Shown: positions 9,054-40,971 of the stretch, in pieces | How the letters are laid out: each line of letters opens with the position of its first letter | Position numbering within the stretch: position 1 is the first letter of the stretch | NCBI RefSeq assembly: GCF_019857225.1 | Contig: NZ_JAFJSY010000027.1 | Span: forward strand, 1 to 64,000 | Length of the DNA: 64,000 nt | Direction of reading: 5' to 3' | Source of the DNA: Streptomyces plumbidurans | GTDB lineage: Bacteria; Actinomycetota; Actinomycetes; Streptomycetales; Streptomycetaceae | The notes under the pieces: model-generated | What the model was told of the DNA's origin: nothing | Databases searched by the model: none | What the model saw: only the letters and a program-made list of their open reading frames with translations | Made by a program: the position numbers and the translations under genes

Positions 9054-10340
9054 ATGAGCAAGATCCTGATCCGTGGTGCGAAGGTGCTCGGCGGCGAGGT
9101 GCAGGACGTCCTGATCGACGGCGCGACGATCGCCGAGGTGGGCTCCGGACTGAGCGCCGACGGCGCCGAGGTCGTCGAGGCCGCCGGCAAGGTGCTGCTG
9201 CCGGGCCTGGTCGACCTGCACACGCATCTGCGCGAGCCGGGCCGCGAGGACTCCGAGACGGTGCTGACCGGCACCCGCGCGGCCGCCTCCGGCGGCTACA
9301 CGTCCGTCTTCGCCATGGCCAACACCTTCCCCGTGGCCGACACCGCCGGCGTGGTCGAGCAGGTCTACCGGCTCGGGCAGGAGCACGGCTACTGCGACGT
9401 GCAGCCCATCGGCGCCGTCACCGTCGGCCTGGAGGGCAGGAAGCTCGCCGAGCTCGGCGCCATGCACGAGTCCGCCGCCGGCGTCACCGTTTTCTCCGAC
9501 GACGGCAAGTGTGTCGACGACGCCGTGATCATGCGCCGGGCGCTGGAGTACGTGAAGGCCTTCGGCGGCGTCGTCGCCCAGCACGCCCAGGAGCCGCGGC
9601 TGACCGAGGGCGCCCAGATGAACGAGGGCGTCGTCTCCGCCGAGCTGGGGCTCGGCGGCTGGCCGTCGGTGGCCGAGGAATCGATCATCGCCCGGGACGT
9701 CCTGCTCGCCGAGCACGTCGGCTCCCGCGTGCACATCTGCCATCTGTCGACCGCCGGGTCCGTCGAGATCGTCCGCTGGGCCAAGTCCCGCGGCATCGAC
9801 GTCACCGCCGAGGTCACCCCGCACCACCTGCTGCTCACCGACGAGCTGGTGCGCACCTACAACCCGGTCTACAAGGTCAACCCGCCGCTGCGCACCGAAC
9901 GCGACGTGCTGGCTCTGCGCGAGGCGCTCGCCGACGGCACCATCGACATCGTCGCCACCGACCACGCCCCGCACCCGCACGAGGACAAGGACTGCGAGTG
10001 GGCCGCGGCCGCCATGGGGATGGTGGGCCTGGAGACCGCCCTGTCGGTGGTGCAGGAGACCATGGTGGACACCGGGCTCCTCACCTGGGCCGGGGTCGCC
10101 GAGCGGATGTCCGTCAAGCCCGCCGAGATCGGACAGGCGAAGGGGCACGGGCGTCCCGTCTCGGCCGGTGAGCCCGCCAACCTCACACTCGTCGACACGG
10201 CATACCGTGGGTCGGTGGACCCCGCGGGCTTCGCCTCGCGCAGCCGGAACACCCCGTACGAAGGGCGTGAGCTGCCCGGCCGAGTGACGCACACGTGGCT
10301 GCGGGGCAAGGCCACGCTCGTCGACGGGAAGCTCACGTGA
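9054..10340 (+). CDS. pyrC: Dihydroorotase
   Basis: 428 residues, class I dihydroorotase length. It closes carbamoyl-aspartate to dihydroorotate. The metal-binding [10 protein letters not shown] is at 54-63 and the catalytic-Asp motif TDHAPH at 302-307; both are intact, so it should be an active enzyme. The stop overlaps the GTG of the next gene. Confidence 0.98.
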
Positions 10341-10903
10341 CACCTCTGCATCTGACGTATCAGGCCGCCGCGAAGCAGTCGGCCGAGGTCACCGACTGGG
10401 CCGCCCGGGTCGGCTGGCTGGTCGGCCTCCTCCTGTTCGTCGCGCTCGTCTACTGGCTGATGCGCGAGGGCTGGAAGTGGCGCGGCACGCTCCAGGGAGA
10501 CGTGCCCGAACTGTTTACCTCGCCGGACGAGCCCGGCGAGGCGAAACTGACCATGAGCGGGCGTTACCACGGCTCCACCACGGCCGGTCAGTGGCTGGAC
10601 CGCATCGTGGCGCACGGCCTGGGCACCCGCAGCCGGGTCGAGCTCACGCTGACGGACACGGGACTGGACGTCGTACGCCCCGGCGCGAGCGACTTCTTCG
10701 TCCCCCTCGCGCAGCTGCGCGAGGCCCGGCTCGACAAGGGCATCGCCGGCAAGGTGCTGACGGAGGGCGGACTGCTCGTGGTGACCTGGCAGCACGGCGA
10801 GCGACTGATCGACTCGGGCTTCCGCTCCGACCACGCCGCCGAGCACACCGAGTGGGTCGAGACCCTGAACCACATGATCAACAAGACGGAAGGCGCACGA
10901 TGA
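10337..10903 (+). CDS. PH-like single-pass membrane protein of the pyr operon
   Basis: 188 residues from the GTG that overlaps the pyrC stop. One transmembrane helix (about residues 25-45, [18 protein letters not shown]) is followed by a roughly 140-residue cytosolic domain that looks like a bacterial PH fold. It overlaps carA by 4 bases (ATGA), so it is embedded in the operon. A membrane protein occupies the same place between pyrC and carA in mycobacteria (Rv1382 in M. tuberculosis), indicating long conservation. No enzymatic motif is visible and its function is unknown. Confidence 0.88.
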
Positions 10904-31810: not shown

Positions 31811-32128
31811 ATGACGGAGCTCGTCGTCACGCTGGACCTCGACGGGGTCACGGACAAGGCGGGCCTGATGGACCGCTGCGCCCGTGCCCTCAGGCTGCCC
31901 GACTGGTTCGGCCGCAACTGGGACGCCCTCGCCGACAGCCTCTCCGACCGTAGCCTGTGGCCCGAGGGCGCGGCCGAGCGGGGGCTGCTGGTCGTCGTGC
32001 ACGGCTGGCGGCCCTACGCCGAGGCGCGCCCCGAGGAGTGGGGGACGGCTCAGGAGGTCTTCGCCGAGGCGGCCGACCGCACCCCCGCGCTCTCGGTGGC
32101 GCTGGCCCTCGGAGGATCCTCCAAGTAG
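31811..32128 (+). CDS. Barstar-family ribonuclease inhibitor
   Basis: 105 residues. Barstar proteins plug the active site of barnase-type RNases. The family core is clear: KAGLMDRCARALRLPDWFGRNWDALADSL near residues 16-45 in two shorter conserved blocks, DWFGRNWDAL being diagnostic. The ATG at 31811 has GGAG-like sequence just upstream. No barnase-like gene is adjacent, so the target is elsewhere or comes from competitors. Confidence 0.88.
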   Translation: MTELVVTLDLDGVTDKAGLMDRCARALRLPDWFGRNWDALADSLSDRSLWPEGAAERGLLVVVHGWRPYAEARPEEWGTAQEVFAEAADRTPALSVALALGGSSK

Positions 32129-33699: not shown

Positions 33700-33855
33700 C
33701 CCGACCGGATCCCCGTCCGCAACGAATGGGCACCCCCGCCGTACGGAACGCAACGATCTTGCGCGCACATGCAAGGTTGCTGCATTACGCCCGTGAAGCC
33801 CGGCCCCGTAGGGTCATGCGCTGTACGTGGCGTGGCGGGGACCCCGCTCGGTGGG

Positions 33856-33921: not shown

Positions 33922-35421
33922 GTGCTCGACCACAGCGCACCCCCGCACGACCGCACCACCCACGCCCCGCCGTCCCCGGGCGTCGGCGCGCGCCTCATGC
34001 GCCGCAAGCCGGTGGAGCGCCTGGTCGCGGAGGGCGGTCAGGGCGAGGGAGGGAGCCTGCGGCGCTCCCTCGGGCTGTGGCAGCTCACCATGATCAGCAT
34101 CGGCGCCACCCTCGGCACCGGCATCTTCGTGGTCCTCGGCCAGGCCGTGCCCAAGGCCGGACCGGCCGTCACCCTCTCCTTCGTGATAGCCGGCCTCACC
34201 GCGCTCTTCTCGGCCCTGTCCTACGCCGAGCTGGCGGGCACGATCCCGGTCGCCGGGTCCTCGTACTCGTATGCATACGCAACCATGGGCGAGCTGATCG
34301 CCTGGATCTGCGGCTGGTGCCTGATCCTGGAGTACGGCGTCTCCGTCGCGGCGGTGGCGGTCGGCTGGGGCGAGTACCTCAACGAACTGCTCGACGGCAC
34401 CATCGGCGTCACGATCCCCGACGCCCTGTCCGCCCCGCCCGGCGACGGCGGCATCTTCAACCTCCCCGCGCTGATCGTCGTCATGCTGGCCATGGCGTTC
34501 CTGCTGGGCGGCGCCAAGGAGTCCGCCCGCGCCAACACGATCATGGTCTGTGTGAAGATCGCCGCGCTGGTGCTGTTCTGCGCCATCGGCATCCAGGGCT
34601 TCAGGTCCGGCAACTACGCGCACTTCATGCCGCTGGGCATGGCGGGCGTCAGCGCGGCCGGTGCCACGCTCTTCTTCTCCTACATCGGCTTCGACGCCGC
34701 TTCCACCGCCGGTGAGGAGGCGAAGAACGCACAGCGCGACCTGCCCCGCGCGATCATGCTGTCGCTGGTCATCGTCACGGCGCTCTACGTCCTCGTCGCC
34801 GCCGTCGCCGTCGGCGCCAAGCCCTGGCGGCAGTTCTCCGACTCCGAGGCCGCGCTCGCCCAGATCATGCGCGAGGTCACCGGCCAGAGCTTCTGGGGCA
34901 CCCTGCTCGCGGCCTGCGCGGTCATCGCCATCGCGAGCGTCGTGCTGACCGTGCTCTACGGCCAGACCCGCATCCTGTTCGCGATGGCCCGGGACGGGCT
35001 CGCCCCCAAGGTGTTCGCGAAGGTCCACCCGAAGACCGGCGCGCCCCGCGCCAACACCGTCATCGTCTCGCTGTTCTGCGGCGTCCTCGCCGCCGCGATC
35101 CCGCTCGGCCAGCTCGCCGACGCCACCAGCATCGGCACGCTCTTCGCCTTCGCGCTGGTCAACATCGCCGTGGTCGTGCTGCGCCGGACCCGCCCCGCCA
35201 TGCCACGCACCTTCCGCGTCCCGCTCTCGCCCGTCCTGCCCGCCGTCGGCTTCGCCCTCTGCATCTGGATGATGGGCAGCCTGTCCACGGTCACCTGGGT
35301 CGTCTTCGGGGTCTGGATGGCGGTCGGGCTCGTGTTCTACTTCGGGTACGGCTACCGCCGCTCCCGCCTCGCCACACCAGAAGGTCTCGCGCCGGAACAT
35401 CCCGCGCCCGAAGAGAAGTGA
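33922..35421 (+). CDS. APC-superfamily (cationic amino acid type) permease
   Basis: 499 residues with about 12 membrane helices starting near residue 50 (ISIGATLGTGIFVVLG). The GATLGTGIF and SYAELAGTIPVAGSSYSYAY motifs, and FFSYIGFDAASTAGEEAKNAQRDLPRAI near residue 255-280 in shorter conserved blocks, match the CAT (arginine/lysine/ornithine) branch. GTG start. An Lrp regulator follows after 10 bases, and the lysine-monooxygenase-like genes lie 2 kb downstream, so lysine uptake is plausible. Confidence 0.92.
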   Translation: MLDHSAPPHDRTTHAPPSPGVGARLMRRKPVERLVAEGGQGEGGSLRRSLGLWQLTMISIGATLGTGIFVVLGQAVPKAGPAVTLSFVIAGLTALFSALSYAELAGTIPVAGSSYSYAYATMGELIAWICGWCLILEYGVSVAAVAVGWGEYLNELLDGTIGVTIPDALSAPPGDGGIFNLPALIVVMLAMAFLLGGAKESARANTIMVCVKIAALVLFCAIGIQGFRSGNYAHFMPLGMAGVSAAGATLFFSYIGFDAASTAGEEAKNAQRDLPRAIMLSLVIVTALYVLVAAVAVGAKPWRQFSDSEAALAQIMREVTGQSFWGTLLAACAVIAIASVVLTVLYGQTRILFAMARDGLAPKVFAKVHPKTGAPRANTVIVSLFCGVLAAAIPLGQLADATSIGTLFAFALVNIAVVVLRRTRPAMPRTFRVPLSPVLPAVGFALCIWMMGSLSTVTWVVFGVWMAVGLVFYFGYGYRRSRLATPEGLAPEHPAPEEK

Positions 35422-35431
35422 ACGACCAGCA

Positions 35432-35884
35432 GTGCTGAACGATCTCGACGAACGCATCGTGCACGCCCTCGCCGAGGACGCCCGCCGCTCCTACGCGGAC
35501 ATCGGGCAGCTCGTCGGCCTGTCCGCGCCCGCCGTCAAGCGGCGCGTGGACCGGCTGCGCGCCACCGGGGCCATCACCGGCTTCACCGTACGGGTGGACC
35601 CCGGCGCCCTCGGCTGGGAGACCGAGGGGTTCGTCGAGATCTACTGCCGGCACAACACCTCGCCGGAGACCATCCGCCGGGGCCTGGAGCGCTACCAGGA
35701 GGTCGTCGCCGCCTCCACCGTCACCGGCGACGCGGACGCCGTCGTGCAGGTCTTCGCCTCCGACATGCGGCACTTCGAACGGGTCCTGGAGCGCATCGCC
35801 GGGGAGCCGTTCGTCGAGCGCACCAAGTCCGTGCTGGTGCTCTCGCCCCTGCTGCGTCGCTTCTCGTCCGGTTCGCCGACGTAA
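35432..35884 (+). CDS. Lrp/AsnC-family transcriptional regulator
   Basis: 150 residues. The N-terminal HTH (LDERIVHALAEDARRSYADI, then VGLSAPAVKRRVDRLRATG) and C-terminal RAM ligand-binding domain (about 65-145) are both present; TGDADAVVQVFASD carries the expected GxxDxxxxV ligand motif. GTG start 10 bases after the permease, so it is probably cotranscribed with it. Members sense amino acids. Confidence 0.95.
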   Translation: MLNDLDERIVHALAEDARRSYADIGQLVGLSAPAVKRRVDRLRATGAITGFTVRVDPGALGWETEGFVEIYCRHNTSPETIRRGLERYQEVVAASTVTGDADAVVQVFASDMRHFERVLERIAGEPFVERTKSVLVLSPLLRRFSSGSPT

Positions 35885-35938
35885 CCGCCCGGCGAAATTC
35901 CGCGCCCGCCCGCGCCTGCTCCGCCTATCATCGGTGCC

Positions 35939-35956
35939 ATGACCTGGCGACATTGA
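35939..35956 (+). promoter_or_regulatory. Possible 5-codon leader ORF (MTWRH) before an MFS gene
   Basis: ATG ACC TGG CGA CAT TGA lies 77 bases before the MFS start. A small hairpin (CCGAGG-ACCG-CCTCGG) and then a GGGAAGG ribosome-binding site follow. This could be a translated leader, or chance. Confidence 0.3.
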
Positions 35957-36033
35957 TCCACCAGCCGTGCCTCCCGAGGACCGCCTCGGACGCCGTACCT
36001 CCGGCATCTGATCCGTCCCTGCGGGAAGGCCTC

Positions 36034-37305
36034 ATGACACTCTCACCTGCGCGTGTGCCCGACACCGCCACCGCCGGCGTTCGCCGGCTCACGGTCACGC
36101 TGTACGGCTACGCGTTCCTCGACGACTTCGTCCTGCTCTACCCGGTGTACGCGCTGCTGTTCAGTGACACCGGCCTCTCGGTCTGGCAGATCTCCTCCCT
36201 CTTCGCGATCTGGTCCCTCACCGGTGTGCTGCTCGAAGTGCCGTCCGGCGCCTGGGCCGACGCCGTCTCCCGGCGCGTACTCCTCTGGCTCGGCCCGCTG
36301 CTCACCGCAGCCGGCTTCACCCTGTGGGTGCTCACCCCCTCGTACTGGGCCTTCGCTCTGGGCTTCTTCCTGTGGGGCGCGCGCGGAGCGCTCGGCTCCG
36401 GTGCCCTGGAGGCCCTGGTCTACGACGAGTTGGAGCGGCTCGACGCGGCCGGGCGCTACGCCCGGATCATGGGCCGGGCCAGGGCCGCGGGGCATGTCGC
36501 GATCATGGCGGCCCTGGCGCTGGCCGGGCCGGTGTTCGCGTGGGGTGGCTATCCGGCCGTGGGAGCGGCGAGCGTGCTGGCCTGTCTGGCGAGCGCCGTG
36601 ACGGCGACCCGGTTCCCCGAGGACCGGCCGAAGCCCGAGGCCGGGGGTGAGGGCTGGGCCGCGACCCTGCGGGACGGACTGGCCGGGGCCCGCCGTGACC
36701 GGTCGCTGCGGGGCGCGCTGCTGCTCGTCCCGGCGGTCGGGGCCGTGTGGGAGGCGCTCGACGAGTACGCGCCCCTGCTGGTCCGGGACACCGGTGTGGC
36801 CGAGGCGACGGTGCCGTATCTGCTCCTGCTGATCTGGGCGGGAGCGACCGCCGGAAGCCTGCTGGCCGGGCGGTGGGAACGCCTCGGCACGCCGGGACTG
36901 GCCGCGGTCCTGACGGTCGCCGCCCTCGCCCTGGCCGCGGGCGCCGCGGCGCGCACGCCCCTCGCCCTCGCCCTCGTGGCCGTCGCCTTCGGCGGCTTCC
37001 AGCTGGCGACCGTGCTCGCCGACGTGCGTCTGCAGCGGCGCATCGACGACACCGCCCGCGCCACGCTGACCTCGGTGGCGGGGCTGGGCAGCGACCTCGC
37101 CACGGTCGCGGTCTACGGCCTGTACGCGGCCGTGCAGACCAGGGCCTCGCACAGCACCGCCTTCACGCTGTTCGCGGTGCCGTACCTGGTGACGGCGGTG
37201 CTGCTGATGCTCGGCAGAACATCGCGGACCCGACCCCGAAGCGGCGGCAGGCGAGGACAGGGGGCGCGCAATGAATCGCCGCCCGAGGAGCCTCGGACGC
37301 AATGA
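36034..37305 (+). CDS. Major facilitator superfamily transporter
   Basis: 423 residues with about 12 hydrophobic helices. The loop 2-3 motif GAWADAVSRR is the MFS A-motif variant. The ATG at 36034 has GGGAAGG six bases before it; the longer in-frame TTG at 35953 is not supported. The C-terminus is basic. The substrate is unknown; it sits between the Lrp regulator and the amidase gene. Confidence 0.88.
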   Translation: MTLSPARVPDTATAGVRRLTVTLYGYAFLDDFVLLYPVYALLFSDTGLSVWQISSLFAIWSLTGVLLEVPSGAWADAVSRRVLLWLGPLLTAAGFTLWVLTPSYWAFALGFFLWGARGALGSGALEALVYDELERLDAAGRYARIMGRARAAGHVAIMAALALAGPVFAWGGYPAVGAASVLACLASAVTATRFPEDRPKPEAGGEGWAATLRDGLAGARRDRSLRGALLLVPAVGAVWEALDEYAPLLVRDTGVAEATVPYLLLLIWAGATAGSLLAGRWERLGTPGLAAVLTVAALALAAGAAARTPLALALVAVAFGGFQLATVLADVRLQRRIDDTARATLTSVAGLGSDLATVAVYGLYAAVQTRASHSTAFTLFAVPYLVTAVLLMLGRTSRTRPRSGGRRGQGARNESPPEEPRTQ

Positions 37306-37344
37306 ACCGCTCACGGGCGCGCAACGGCTCCTTCTTGCCGGTCC

Positions 37345-37379
37345 GCGGGGGGCGACCGTACCGTCTAATTGCCCCCCGC
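37345..37379. promoter_or_regulatory. Inverted repeat in the davA-like promoter region
   Basis: GCGGGGGGC (37345-37353) and GCCCCCCGC (37371-37379) form a perfect 9-bp inverted repeat around 17 bases that include TACCGTCTAATT. It starts 62 bases upstream of the amidase ATG. It may be an operator or the terminator of the MFS gene. Confidence 0.4.
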
Positions 37380-37406
37380 ACGCACCTGTACCGGTGAGGA
37401 ACACGC

Positions 37407-38195
37407 ATGCGTACCGCCCTGCTCCAGAGCTCCGGCCGCCCCGGCTCCGTCGCCGAGAACCTCAAGGTCCTCGACGCCGCCGCGGGCCGTGCCGCCGCCG
37501 CGGGCGCCGCGCTGCTGACCGCGCCGGAGATGTTCCTGACCGGGTACGCGATCGGCGACGACATCGCCCGCCTCGCCGAGCCGGCCGACGGCGACTCCGC
37601 GGACGCGATCGCGGAGCTCGCCGCCCGGCACGGCCTCGCGATCGCCTACGGCTACCCGGAGCGCGACGGCGGCACGGTCTTCAACTCCGCCCAGCTGATC
37701 TCCGCCACCGGCGACCGCCTCGCGAACCACCGCAAGGCCCACCTCTTCGGCGGCTTCGAGCGCGACCACTTCACGCCGGGCGAGCAGCCGGTCGTCCAGG
37801 CCGAGCTGGGCGGACTGACCGTCGGGCTGATGATCTGCTACGACGTCGAGTTCCCGGAGTACGTCCGCGCCCACGCCCTGGCCGGCACCGACCTGCTGCT
37901 CGTCCCGACGGCGAACATGCATCCGTTCCAGCTGGTCGCCGAGTCCATGATCCCGGTGCGGGCGTGGGAGAACCAGATGTACGTGGCGTACGCCAACCGG
38001 GTCGGCCAGGAAGGGGAGTTCGAGTTCTTCGGGCTCTCCGCGCTGGCCGGTCCCGACGGGGTCGCCCGGGCCCGCGCCGGACGCGGCGAGGAACTCGTCC
38101 TCGCAGACGTCGACCCCGCCTTCCTGGCCTCCTCCCGTGAGGCCAACCCGTACCTGAAGGACCGCCGCCCCGGCCTGTACGGGTCCCTCGTCTGA
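37407..38195 (+). CDS. davA: Nitrilase-superfamily amidase, 5-aminovaleramidase (DavA)-like
   Basis: 262 residues. The catalytic triad of the superfamily is visible: E41 in TAPEMFLTGY, K110 in NHRKAHLFG and C144 in LMICYDVEFPE. PEMFLTGY, YGYPER, KAHLFG, ICYDVEFPE and LLVPTANM in this order closely follow Pseudomonas putida DavA (264 residues), which hydrolyses 5-aminovaleramide. The gene lies 48 bases before a DavB-like monooxygenase, the same pair that in Pseudomonas turns lysine into 5-aminovalerate. Related amidases act on other amides, so the substrate is inferred. Confidence 0.8.
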   Translation: MRTALLQSSGRPGSVAENLKVLDAAAGRAAAAGAALLTAPEMFLTGYAIGDDIARLAEPADGDSADAIAELAARHGLAIAYGYPERDGGTVFNSAQLISATGDRLANHRKAHLFGGFERDHFTPGEQPVVQAELGGLTVGLMICYDVEFPEYVRAHALAGTDLLLVPTANMHPFQLVAESMIPVRAWENQMYVAYANRVGQEGEFEFFGLSALAGPDGVARARAGRGEELVLADVDPAFLASSREANPYLKDRRPGLYGSLV

Positions 38196-38243
38196 AACCC
38201 CGAGCCACCGCTCAAGCCTTTCCCCGCAAGGAGTCCGTACCCC

Positions 38244-39944
38244 ATGACGTCCACCGTGCCCAACGCCGTCGAGCACGCAGACGAGCAGCAGCCGCCGATC
38301 ACCATGTTCGGCCCGGACTTCCCCTACGCCTACGACGACTTCCTCGCCCACCCCGCGGGTCTCGGCCAGATCCCGGCGACCGAGCACGGCGCCGAGGTCG
38401 CGGTCGTCGGCGGCGGTCTGTCCGGCATCGTGGCCGCGTACGAGCTGATGAAGATGGGCCTGAAGCCCGTCGTCTACGAGGCCGACCAGATCGGCGGACG
38501 GCTGCGGACGGTCGGCTTCGAGGGCGCCGGCACCGAAGGACTCACGGCCGAGATGGGCGCCATGCGCTTCCCGCCGTCCTCCACGGCCCTGCAGCACTAC
38601 ATCGACCTGGTGGGCCTCGAGACCCGGGCCTTCCCCAACCCCCTTGCGGAGACGACGCCTTCGACCGTCGTCGACCTCAAGGGCGAGTCCCACTACGCCG
38701 AGACGATCGACGACCTGCCGCAGGTCTACCGCGATGTCGCCGACGCCTGGAACAAGTGCCTCGAAGAGGGCGCCGACTTCTCCGACATGAACCGCGCCAT
38801 CCGTGAGCGCGACGTGCCGCGCATCCGCGAGATCTGGGCGAGGCTCGTCGAGAAGCTCGACAACCAGACCTTCTACGGCTTCCTCTGCGACTCCGAGTCC
38901 TTCAGGTCCTTCCGCCACCGCGAGATCTTCGGCCAGGTCGGCTTCGGCACCGGCGGCTGGGACACCGACTTCCCGAACTCCATCCTGGAGATCCTGCGGG
39001 TCGTCTACACCGAGGCCGACGACCATCACCGCGGCATCGTCGGCGGCTCCCAGCAACTGCCGCAGCGGCTGTGGGAGCGCGAGCCGGAGAAGATCGTGCA
39101 CTGGCCCTACGGGACGTCCCTGAAGTCCCTGCACGTCGGCGGCGAACCCCGCCCGGCCGTCACCCGCCTCACCCGCACCGCCGGCAACCGGATCACCGTG
39201 ACCGACGCGGACGGCGACATCCGCACCTACCGGGCCGCCGTCTTCACCGCGCAGTCCTGGATGCTGCTCTCCAAGATTGCCTGCGACGACTCGCTCTTCC
39301 CGATCGACCACTGGACCGCGATCGAGCGCACCCACTACATGGAGTCCTCGAAGCTGTTCGTGCCCGTCGACCGGCCGTTCTGGCTGGACAAGGACGAGGA
39401 CACCGGTCGTGACGTCATGTCGATGACGCTCACCGACCGCATGACGCGCGGGACTTACCTCCTCGACGACGGTCCGGACAAGCCCGCCGTCATCTGCCTC
39501 TCCTACACCTGGTGCGACGACAGCCTGAAGTGGCTGCCGCTGTCCGCGAACGAGCGGATGGAGGTCATGCTGAAGTCGCTCGGGGAGATCTATCCGAAGG
39601 TCGACATCAGGAAGCACGTCATCGGCAGTCCGGTGACCGTCTCCTGGGAGAACGAGCCGTACTTCATGGGCGCGTTCAAGGCCAACCTGCCCGGCCACTA
39701 CCGCTACCAGCGCCGCCTGTTCACGCACTTCATGCAGGACCGGCTGCCCGAGGACAAGCGGGGGATCTTTCTCGCGGGCGACGACATCTCCTGGACGGCC
39801 GGCTGGGCGGAGGGTGCCGTCCAGACGGCGCTGAACGCGGTGTGGGGGGTCATGCACCACTTCGGTGGGGGGACCGATGCGAGCAACCCCGGGCCGGGGG
39901 ATCTGTATGACGAGATCGCGCCGGTGGAGTTGCCTGAGGACTGA
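38244..39944 (+). CDS. davB: FAD-dependent L-amino-acid monooxygenase, L-lysine 2-monooxygenase (DavB)-like
   Basis: 566 residues. FAD-binding VVGGGLSGIVAAYE (GxGxxG at 56-61) and GGRLRTVGF follow a short lead. Blocks such as MFGPDFPYAYDDFLAHPAGLG, FGQVGFGTGGWDTDFPNS, VSWENEPYFMGAFK and a C-terminal FLAGDDISWTAGWAEGAVQT closely match Pseudomonas DavB (about 560 residues), which oxidatively decarboxylates lysine to 5-aminovaleramide. Tryptophan 2-monooxygenases and phenylalanine oxidases share the fold and would give amides as well. AAGGAG precedes the ATG. Confidence 0.82.
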   Translation: MTSTVPNAVEHADEQQPPITMFGPDFPYAYDDFLAHPAGLGQIPATEHGAEVAVVGGGLSGIVAAYELMKMGLKPVVYEADQIGGRLRTVGFEGAGTEGLTAEMGAMRFPPSSTALQHYIDLVGLETRAFPNPLAETTPSTVVDLKGESHYAETIDDLPQVYRDVADAWNKCLEEGADFSDMNRAIRERDVPRIREIWARLVEKLDNQTFYGFLCDSESFRSFRHREIFGQVGFGTGGWDTDFPNSILEILRVVYTEADDHHRGIVGGSQQLPQRLWEREPEKIVHWPYGTSLKSLHVGGEPRPAVTRLTRTAGNRITVTDADGDIRTYRAAVFTAQSWMLLSKIACDDSLFPIDHWTAIERTHYMESSKLFVPVDRPFWLDKDEDTGRDVMSMTLTDRMTRGTYLLDDGPDKPAVICLSYTWCDDSLKWLPLSANERMEVMLKSLGEIYPKVDIRKHVIGSPVTVSWENEPYFMGAFKANLPGHYRYQRRLFTHFMQDRLPEDKRGIFLAGDDISWTAGWAEGAVQTALNAVWGVMHHFGGGTDASNPGPGDLYDEIAPVELPED

Positions 39945-40041: not shown

Positions 40042-40971
40042 TTAGATCCCTGCGGCGCGTGCCTTTTCGTACACCTCCGCTGCTACGTCCTGGAGTTCTC
40101 GGGCGTCGCGCAGGGTGCTCTGGAGGTCGATGATGATCTCGTCCGGGTCGGTGGCGGCGTAGGCGGCCAGGTCTTCGACGATCTGGTCCACGGTGCCGTG
40201 GAGGGGGCGGCGGGCGGTGCCCTCGTGGGGGTGCGTGGAGTGGCGGGCGCTGGCGCGCAGTACCGTGCGGATCGGGCGGGTGCGGCCGCGCTCGGCGGCC
40301 AGGTCCTCCAACTGGCGCCGCTGCGCGAGCAGTTGCTCGACGCCCGAGGCCACGGGCAGCCAGCCGTCCGCGCGGTCGACGAGCCGGATCATCGCCCTTT
40401 TGCCGGAGGCGGCCAGCAGAATCGGGATCGGCCGGGCGGGCTTGGGGCCGACCACCGCGGGGGCGATGCGCGTGAGGTGGCCGTCGTACGACACCGGGTC
40501 GGGGCCCCACACCGCCCGGCACACCTCGATCACCTCGTCGAGGGCCCGGCCGCGCTCCTCGAAGGGGCGCGCCGAGGCGGCCGCGTACTCGTCGTGCGAC
40601 CAGCCCGTGCCGAGGCCCGCGACGACCCGACCGCCGCTCGCCGCGTCCAGCGTGCCGAGCGTCCTGGCCAGCTGGAACGGCCCGTGCAGCGGGGCCACCA
40701 GGACGCTGGTGCCGAGCCGGGCCCGCTGCGTGGCCGCGGCCGCCAGTGTCAGCGTGACCAGCGGGTCGGCGGCGCCTCGGTAGTGGTCCGGCCAGGGGAG
40801 GCCCTCCACGCCGTACAGGCCCTGGCGGGCCGGCTCGGGGAACAGAATCCGTTCGAACACCCACAGGCTCTCGTAGCCGGTCGCCTCGGCGGCCCGCGCC
40901 ACGTCGGGGATGTCCCGGCCGAGGTGATACTGCCTGGTCTGGGGTAGCCCGAGTCCGAGCGCGACCGCCAT
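40042..40971 (-). CDS. Luciferase-like (LLM class) F420-dependent oxidoreductase
   Basis: 309 residues with a luciferase-type TIM barrel. Typical blocks are the RAAEATGYESLWVFER opening, LGTSVLVAPLHGPFQLARTLGTLD and RVVAGLGTGWSHDEYAA. Actinobacterial members usually use reduced F420. No substrate can be deduced; the gene is alone, converging with the monooxygenase gene. Confidence 0.9.
   Translation of the reverse strand: MAVALGLGLPQTRQYHLGRDIPDVARAAEATGYESLWVFERILFPEPARQGLYGVEGLPWPDHYRGAADPLVTLTLAAAATQRARLGTSVLVAPLHGPFQLARTLGTLDAASGGRVVAGLGTGWSHDEYAAASARPFEERGRALDEVIEVCRAVWGPDPVSYDGHLTRIAPAVVGPKPARPIPILLAASGKRAMIRLVDRADGWLPVASGVEQLLAQRRQLEDLAAERGRTRPIRTVLRASARHSTHPHEGTARRPLHGTVDQIVEDLAAYAATDPDEIIIDLQSTLRDARELQDVAAEVYEKARAAGI

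Follow-up and report, generated by a model that had tools for sequence, protein, structure and literature searches.

A genus-wide Streptomyces monooxygenase-amidase module predicted to act on a basic amino acid, possibly arginine

Which amino acid is consumed by the proteins of a small catabolic locus in Streptomyces plumbidurans, where genes for a permease, an Lrp-type regulator, an amidase and a flavin adenine dinucleotide (FAD) enzyme lie together? We studied this locus in a window of 64,000 nucleotides, the whole stretch of DNA analysed (assembly GCF_019857225.1, contig NZ_JAFJSY010000027.1, positions 1 to 64,000). A first-pass annotation had read the two enzymes as a lysine 2-monooxygenase and a 5-aminovaleramidase like DavB and DavA of Pseudomonas, going by their lengths and the order of conserved blocks. 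Both types of reaction, and the enzyme families, are in common with DavB and DavA of P. putida, in which the gene order differs. Lysine breakdown in Streptomyces has been described mainly via cadaverine, and an arginine 2-monooxygenase activity (EC 1.13.12.1) has been described from S. griseus. Our analysis favors a dedicated arginine 2-monooxygenase and 4-guanidinobutyramide amidase module, to which we assign a probability of about one half. Open reading frame positions and Pfam/NCBIfam profiles placed the permease, the Lrp/AsnC regulator, a major facilitator superfamily (MFS) transporter, the amidase and the FAD enzyme on the forward strand, and agreed with the first-pass annotation on its four genes, their lengths where given (262 and 566 residues) and the amidase-first order. 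The components of the module are as follows.

33718..33756, + strand: putative operator of the permease-Lrp unit, two CGCAACGA boxes 31 bp apart, read directly from the sequence, with a degenerate third at about 33770
33922..35421, + strand: APC-superfamily amino acid permease, 499 amino acids (NCBIfam TIGR00909, 611.7 bits against a cut-off of 556.8; Pfam AA_permease_2 and AA_permease_C)
35432..35884, + strand: Lrp/AsnC-family regulator, 150 amino acids, starting 10 bp behind the permease (Pfam HTH_AsnC-type and AsnC_trans_reg)
37267..37327, + strand: putative operator of the amidase-monooxygenase unit, CGCAAYGA-type boxes at 37267, 37298 and 37320 (31- and 22-bp phasing)
37335..37364, + strand: predicted promoter, -35 TTGCCG and -10 TACCGT with an 18-bp spacer
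37407..38195, + strand: nitrilase-superfamily omega-amidase, 262 amino acids (Pfam CN_hydrolase), putative substrate 4-guanidinobutyramide or 5-aminovaleramide
38244..39944, + strand: FAD-dependent enzyme, predicted basic L-amino acid 2-monooxygenase, 566 amino acids (Pfam Amino_oxidase; 803 bits to 3we0/5yb6-5yb8; pocket residues)

The FAD enzyme matched L-AAO/MOG, the lysine oxidase/2-monooxygenase of Pseudomonas sp. AIU 813 (PDB 3we0; also 5yb6-5yb8), over residues 11-563 and thus at full length, with an E value of 1e-240 and 60% identity. Only 197 bits were obtained with the tryptophan enzyme 4iv9 and about 41 bits with the phenylalanine enzyme 2yr4. Neither the monooxygenase nor the amidase matched any NCBIfam model above cut-off, and no second copy of the FAD enzyme was found in the 8.64-Mb genome at E 1e-10. 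The FAD fold and the substrate cage are those of L-AAO/MOG: in the numbering of that enzyme, used throughout, Asp238, Trp235, Arg102, Tyr416, Trp418, Phe473 and Trp516 were all kept, both in the window enzyme and in the complete aligned core copies from other Streptomyces. Three pocket positions differed (Cys254 to Ala, Gln258 to His and Ala515 to Gly), and at all three the window enzyme agreed with an actinobacterial set in which some members are linked to arginine. In L-AAO/MOG, Asp238 makes up the pocket ceiling and contacts lysine, ornithine or arginine at the charged end, whereas the tryptophan and phenylalanine enzymes have Val or Leu at this position and Phe at 235 (PMC5832979). Since Asp238 and the other cage residues are kept, the predicted substrate class is that of the basic amino acids, within which these residues cannot separate lysine from arginine or the basic substrates from each other.

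The same positions bear on the proposal, also made in the first-pass annotation, that tryptophan or phenylalanine is converted to indoleacetamide or phenylacetamide and then to auxin-like acids. Tryptophan 2-monooxygenase (4iv9) and L-phenylalanine oxidase (2yr4) belong to the same superfamily, the fold being in common with the former, and both have Gly515 like the window enzyme. They differ at residues 235 and 238, they gave far weaker matches, and separate, distant Trp-type homologues with Phe238 exist in some Streptomyces. We rejected this reading on residues 235 and 238; it is highly improbable and, with Asp rather than Val or Leu at 238, excluded for practical purposes. The distant paralogues, seen at loci L078 and L079 (also G102 and G158), are tryptophan monooxygenase-like and 33-38% identical, with Phe at 238 in L078 and L079. 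Another family member (L077, about 9144-10829) has Asn in place of Asp238, a change that inactivates L-AAO/MOG (D238N), and its search match contains a single in-frame TAG; it lies near an asparagine-permease-like gene and may have a different substrate or be a decaying gene.

Evidence that favors arginine came from the relatives of both enzymes. Some Streptomyces have a second monooxygenase copy, about 61-65% identical, beside genes for an acyl-CoA ligase, a FabD-like acyltransferase and polyketide synthase-sized proteins. This setting is the one known from arginine-primed polyketides, for which arginine is converted to the starter by an arginine monooxygenase, a hydrolase of 4-guanidinobutyramide and a CoA ligase (PMC5082578, PMC4737276). 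The azalomycin producer S. iranensis had exactly two family members, the core gene and one clustered with the CoA ligase and acyltransferase; only the core copy was present in S. halstedii and SirexAA-E. The arginoketide enzymes (azalomycin/clethramycin type) have Ala254 and Gly515 in common with the window enzyme, and differ from it in Phe516 instead of Trp and in neighbors that encode a CoA ligase, an acyltransferase and a polyketide synthase instead of a permease and Lrp. An unrooted tree separated the Streptomyces core, families f17 and f28, Tsukamurella and the polyketide-cluster arginine monooxygenases from the lysine enzyme L-AAO/MOG with a split support of 100/99. The amidase tree, in which the window amidase grouped with the Tsukamurella amidase and those adjoining polyketide-cluster arginine monooxygenases (support 87/93), agreed in direction. 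Identity was 48-55% within this arginine-linked group, to which the arginoketide partner amidases belong wherever they are adjacent, and 36-48% to the remaining sequences. The window amidase itself is a CN-hydrolase (Pfam, 175 bits; closest PDB 5jqn/3hkx) with the triad Glu41, Lys110 and Cys144, kept in 23/23 sequences compared.

Guanidinobutyrase-type genes next to relatives of the monooxygenase point the same way. On a plasmid of Tsukamurella tyrosinosolvens (NZ_LR134452.1), the genes for a ureohydrolase, a permease, an amidase and a monooxygenase follow one another with overlaps or short gaps. The ureohydrolase has guanidinobutyrase 3nio as its closest match, and the monooxygenase, 69% identical overall, has ten pocket residues identical to those of the window enzyme. 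Permease and amidase thus adjoin the monooxygenase as they do in the window, from which this operon differs by the linked guanidinobutyrase-type gene, an XRE regulator in place of Lrp and its plasmid location. Similar ureohydrolases occur within about 10 kb of monooxygenase relatives at L202, L208 and L214. A single ureohydrolase-family gene is present in the S. plumbidurans genome, and its closest match is likewise 3nio. It belongs to a conserved operon that also encodes a sodium symporter and an AruI-like thiamine enzyme, alongside a divergent PucR regulator (L154 6829-10996, C112), and in nearly all the Streptomyces loci examined it remains paired with the thiamine-enzyme gene.

Arginine is preferred over lysine because of the unrooted monooxygenase split, the amidase grouping and the guanidinobutyrase-type neighbors of relatives. 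Under this preferred reading, the permease would import a basic amino acid, most likely L-arginine, and the FAD enzyme would use O2 to decarboxylate arginine oxidatively to 4-guanidinobutyramide, which has one carbon fewer. The amidase would release ammonia and 4-guanidinobutyrate, the guanidinobutyrase encoded elsewhere in the genome would split the latter into urea and gamma-aminobutyrate (GABA), and GABA aminotransferase would feed succinate. S. coelicolor grows on arginine without a standard arginase gene, and its known pathway genes were unresponsive to arginine except gabT, the expression of which doubled (PMC3293853).

Several observations weigh against arginine. When rooted on the very distant Trp-type enzymes, the monooxygenase tree nests the lysine enzyme next to the core sequences, and since the rooted and unrooted placements disagree this tree alone is not decisive. 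The polyketide-cluster arginine enzymes constantly have Phe at 516, where the core enzymes have Trp wherever the position is readable; Phe516 was nevertheless dropped as a diagnostic marker, since Trp occupies this position in the guanidinobutyrase-linked enzymes of Tsukamurella, L202 and L214. In Streptomyces the guanidinobutyrase gene is unlinked to the module, a whole-genome scan found no box pair at it, and the AruI-like enzyme beside it could supply the guanidinobutyrase from 2-ketoarginine. The strongest counter-evidence is published: S. lividans equipped with the azalomycin cluster produced the compound only if 4-guanidinobutyramide was supplied, and according to the same study its genome lacks an arginine monooxygenase (PMC5082578). 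An orthologue of the core gene is nonetheless very likely to exist in S. coelicolor and S. lividans, because this gene is near-universal and SCO1453 matches the downstream neighbor of the window enzyme (40042-40971). Low expression could account for the feeding result, as could loss of the intermediate to the native amidase and guanidinobutyrase, but the result still counts as real evidence against arginine. Co-occurrence of the two enzymes also carried less weight than its counts suggest. The core monooxygenase was found in 288/296 genus genomes, usually as a single copy, and the guanidinobutyrase orthologue in 287/296, with seven genomes lacking both at the thresholds used; a GuaB1 tree placed the six complete joint-absence genomes in one clade, so that the joint absence amounts to one event and weak evidence, and we dropped it as a strong argument. 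As a side observation, this clade (G037, G120, G121, G156, G186 and G272) is a natural knockout group for physiology.

The first rival is the DavBA-like reading, in which lysine is converted to 5-aminovaleramide, 5-aminovalerate and glutarate in parallel to the cadaverine route. It draws on the lysine oxidase/monooxygenase being the closest solved relative, on Asp238 and the cage Trp516, and on the S. lividans result, with which it is consistent; polyketide clusters have dedicated arginine paralogues, a need that would arise if arginine were not accepted by the core enzyme, and a glutaryl-CoA dehydrogenase lies near the relative at L214. Residues 254, 258 and 515 are unlike those of the lysine enzyme, several relatives have guanidinobutyrase-type neighbors, and the glutarate hydroxylase CsiD is absent from the S. 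plumbidurans genome, although this says little because glutaryl-CoA routes exist. We consider lysine as the dedicated substrate rather doubtful. The basic substrate class of the first-pass annotation was retained, and the pocket comparison that it proposed gave seven cage residues as in L-AAO/MOG, with those at 235 and 238 unlike the Trp/Phe enzymes, together with the three differing positions; its choice of lysine over arginine, which it had listed only as an assay substrate and not as an explanation, found no support in the unrooted tree (less clearly so after rooting), the neighboring genes of relatives or the undiscriminating pocket. Ornithine, or a broad range of basic amino acids, is an unlikely answer in our judgment, with GABA formed via 4-aminobutyramide in addition to 4-guanidinobutyrate and 5-aminovalerate. 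The monooxygenase kcat/Km of L-AAO/MOG is highest with ornithine (200), followed by lysine (74) and arginine (24) (PMC5832979), the pocket does not tell these substrates apart, and S. coelicolor grows on both ornithine and arginine (PMC3293853). No ornithine-specific neighbor was seen, however, and the guanidinobutyrase linkage of relatives favors arginine.

The arrangement of the locus and its putative operators argue for a single regulated module. The amidase and FAD enzyme genes occurred together in 16/16 Streptomyces core loci examined, the amidase ending 43-87 bp ahead of the monooxygenase (17 plus-strand core loci measured). The Lrp gene was present in 13 of the 16, at 86-98% identity, and was not seen in the stretch retrieved for the other three (L159, L161 and L171); the permease was near the core pair in about half. 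In family f17 the permease gene accompanies those for the amidase and the FAD enzyme, a divergent Lrp gene lies close by, and the adjoining genes read as ispG, rseP and dxr. Because the association recurs genus-wide and in this second family at a different chromosomal neighborhood, it is far from chance. The regulator has both a recognizable AsnC-type helix-turn-helix and a ligand-binding domain (Pfam). The exact phased box pair occurs twice in the window (33718 and 37267; 0 in 100 shuffles) and nowhere else in the whole 8.64-Mb genome, so a wider regulon was dropped. Among 99 Streptomyces amidase-upstream regions, CGCAAC was found in 95, the phased pair in 84, and TTGTC followed at a constant distance by TACnGT in 70; the pair also precedes the amidase in the f17 loci L201 and L204. 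It was matched in 59/91 genus genomes, mostly as the two known sequence types as judged by eye, and no third recurring type was seen by eye among the listed sites of these 91 genomes. As each unit is preceded by phased boxes, and the exact pair is genome-unique to these two places, the simplest reading of the sequence is one dedicated local Lrp regulon, in which Lrp from the permease unit probably binds the CGCAAYGA boxes and switches both units together. The position of the boxes just upstream of the -35 element suggests activation. Taken with the enzyme sequences, pocket and synteny, this common operator upheld the proposed class of a decarboxylating basic amino-acid 2-monooxygenase and omega-amidase with a permease and an Lrp regulator. 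The permease itself scored under the cut-off of the cationic family TIGR00906 (NCBIfam).

Two further genes flank or interrupt the module.

36034..37305, + strand: MFS transporter between Lrp and the amidase (Pfam MFS_1)
40042-40971, - strand: F420/LLM oxidoreductase adjoining the monooxygenase downstream, corresponding to S. coelicolor SCO1453

The MFS gene, missing from the first-pass gene list, was variably present near the core pair and varies between species: many Streptomyces loci, and family f17, lack it or have it in another place. No copy of the box pair precedes it, and it is probably outside the module. SCO1453 is described as an F420/flavin oxidoreductase and has been put forward as a possible reference gene (PMC4630627), and our literature search for a published function of SCO1453-SCO1459 returned only this use. 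Upstream, a small protein at 31853-32128, between a SorC/DeoR-type regulator and guaB1, may be barstar-like, a guess from its sequence.

The core gene also occurs in S. coelicoflavus, S. violaceorubidus and S. tendae, among other named species, and near-identical forms in named species agree with the placement of the genome in Streptomyces. In its widest and more tentative form, our proposal is that the core gene, at the SCO1454 position of S. coelicolor by synteny, may be the primary-metabolism arginine 2-monooxygenase of Streptomyces. It would serve a genus-wide route from arginine through 4-guanidinobutyramide and 4-guanidinobutyrate to GABA, controlled by a dedicated Lrp regulon with two sites. 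The starter enzymes of arginoketide clusters would be sister copies of it, and the AruI-like enzyme would salvage 2-ketoarginine from a side reaction. Separately, the symporter-ureohydrolase-AruI-like operon could have such a salvage role for 2-ketoarginine released by the oxidase side reaction of the monooxygenase.

The enzyme types are already known, and we found no report in the literature searched that assigns or tests the core monooxygenase-amidase pathway of Streptomyces. Arginine use by S. coelicolor and its relatives has been puzzling, as S. coelicolor grows on it without a standard arginase gene (PMC3293853). If the substrate is arginine, this gap would be closed by a near-universal, usually single-copy and separately regulated pair for which a matching guanidinobutyrase exists. 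The old arginine monooxygenase activity of S. griseus could then be assigned to a gene. If it is lysine, the genus would have a second core lysine route beside cadaverine. Either substrate would bear on the supply of arginine-primed polyketide precursors and on the production of 5-aminovalerate or 4-guanidinobutyrate, and the module makes the question of arginine and lysine catabolism in Streptomyces directly testable.

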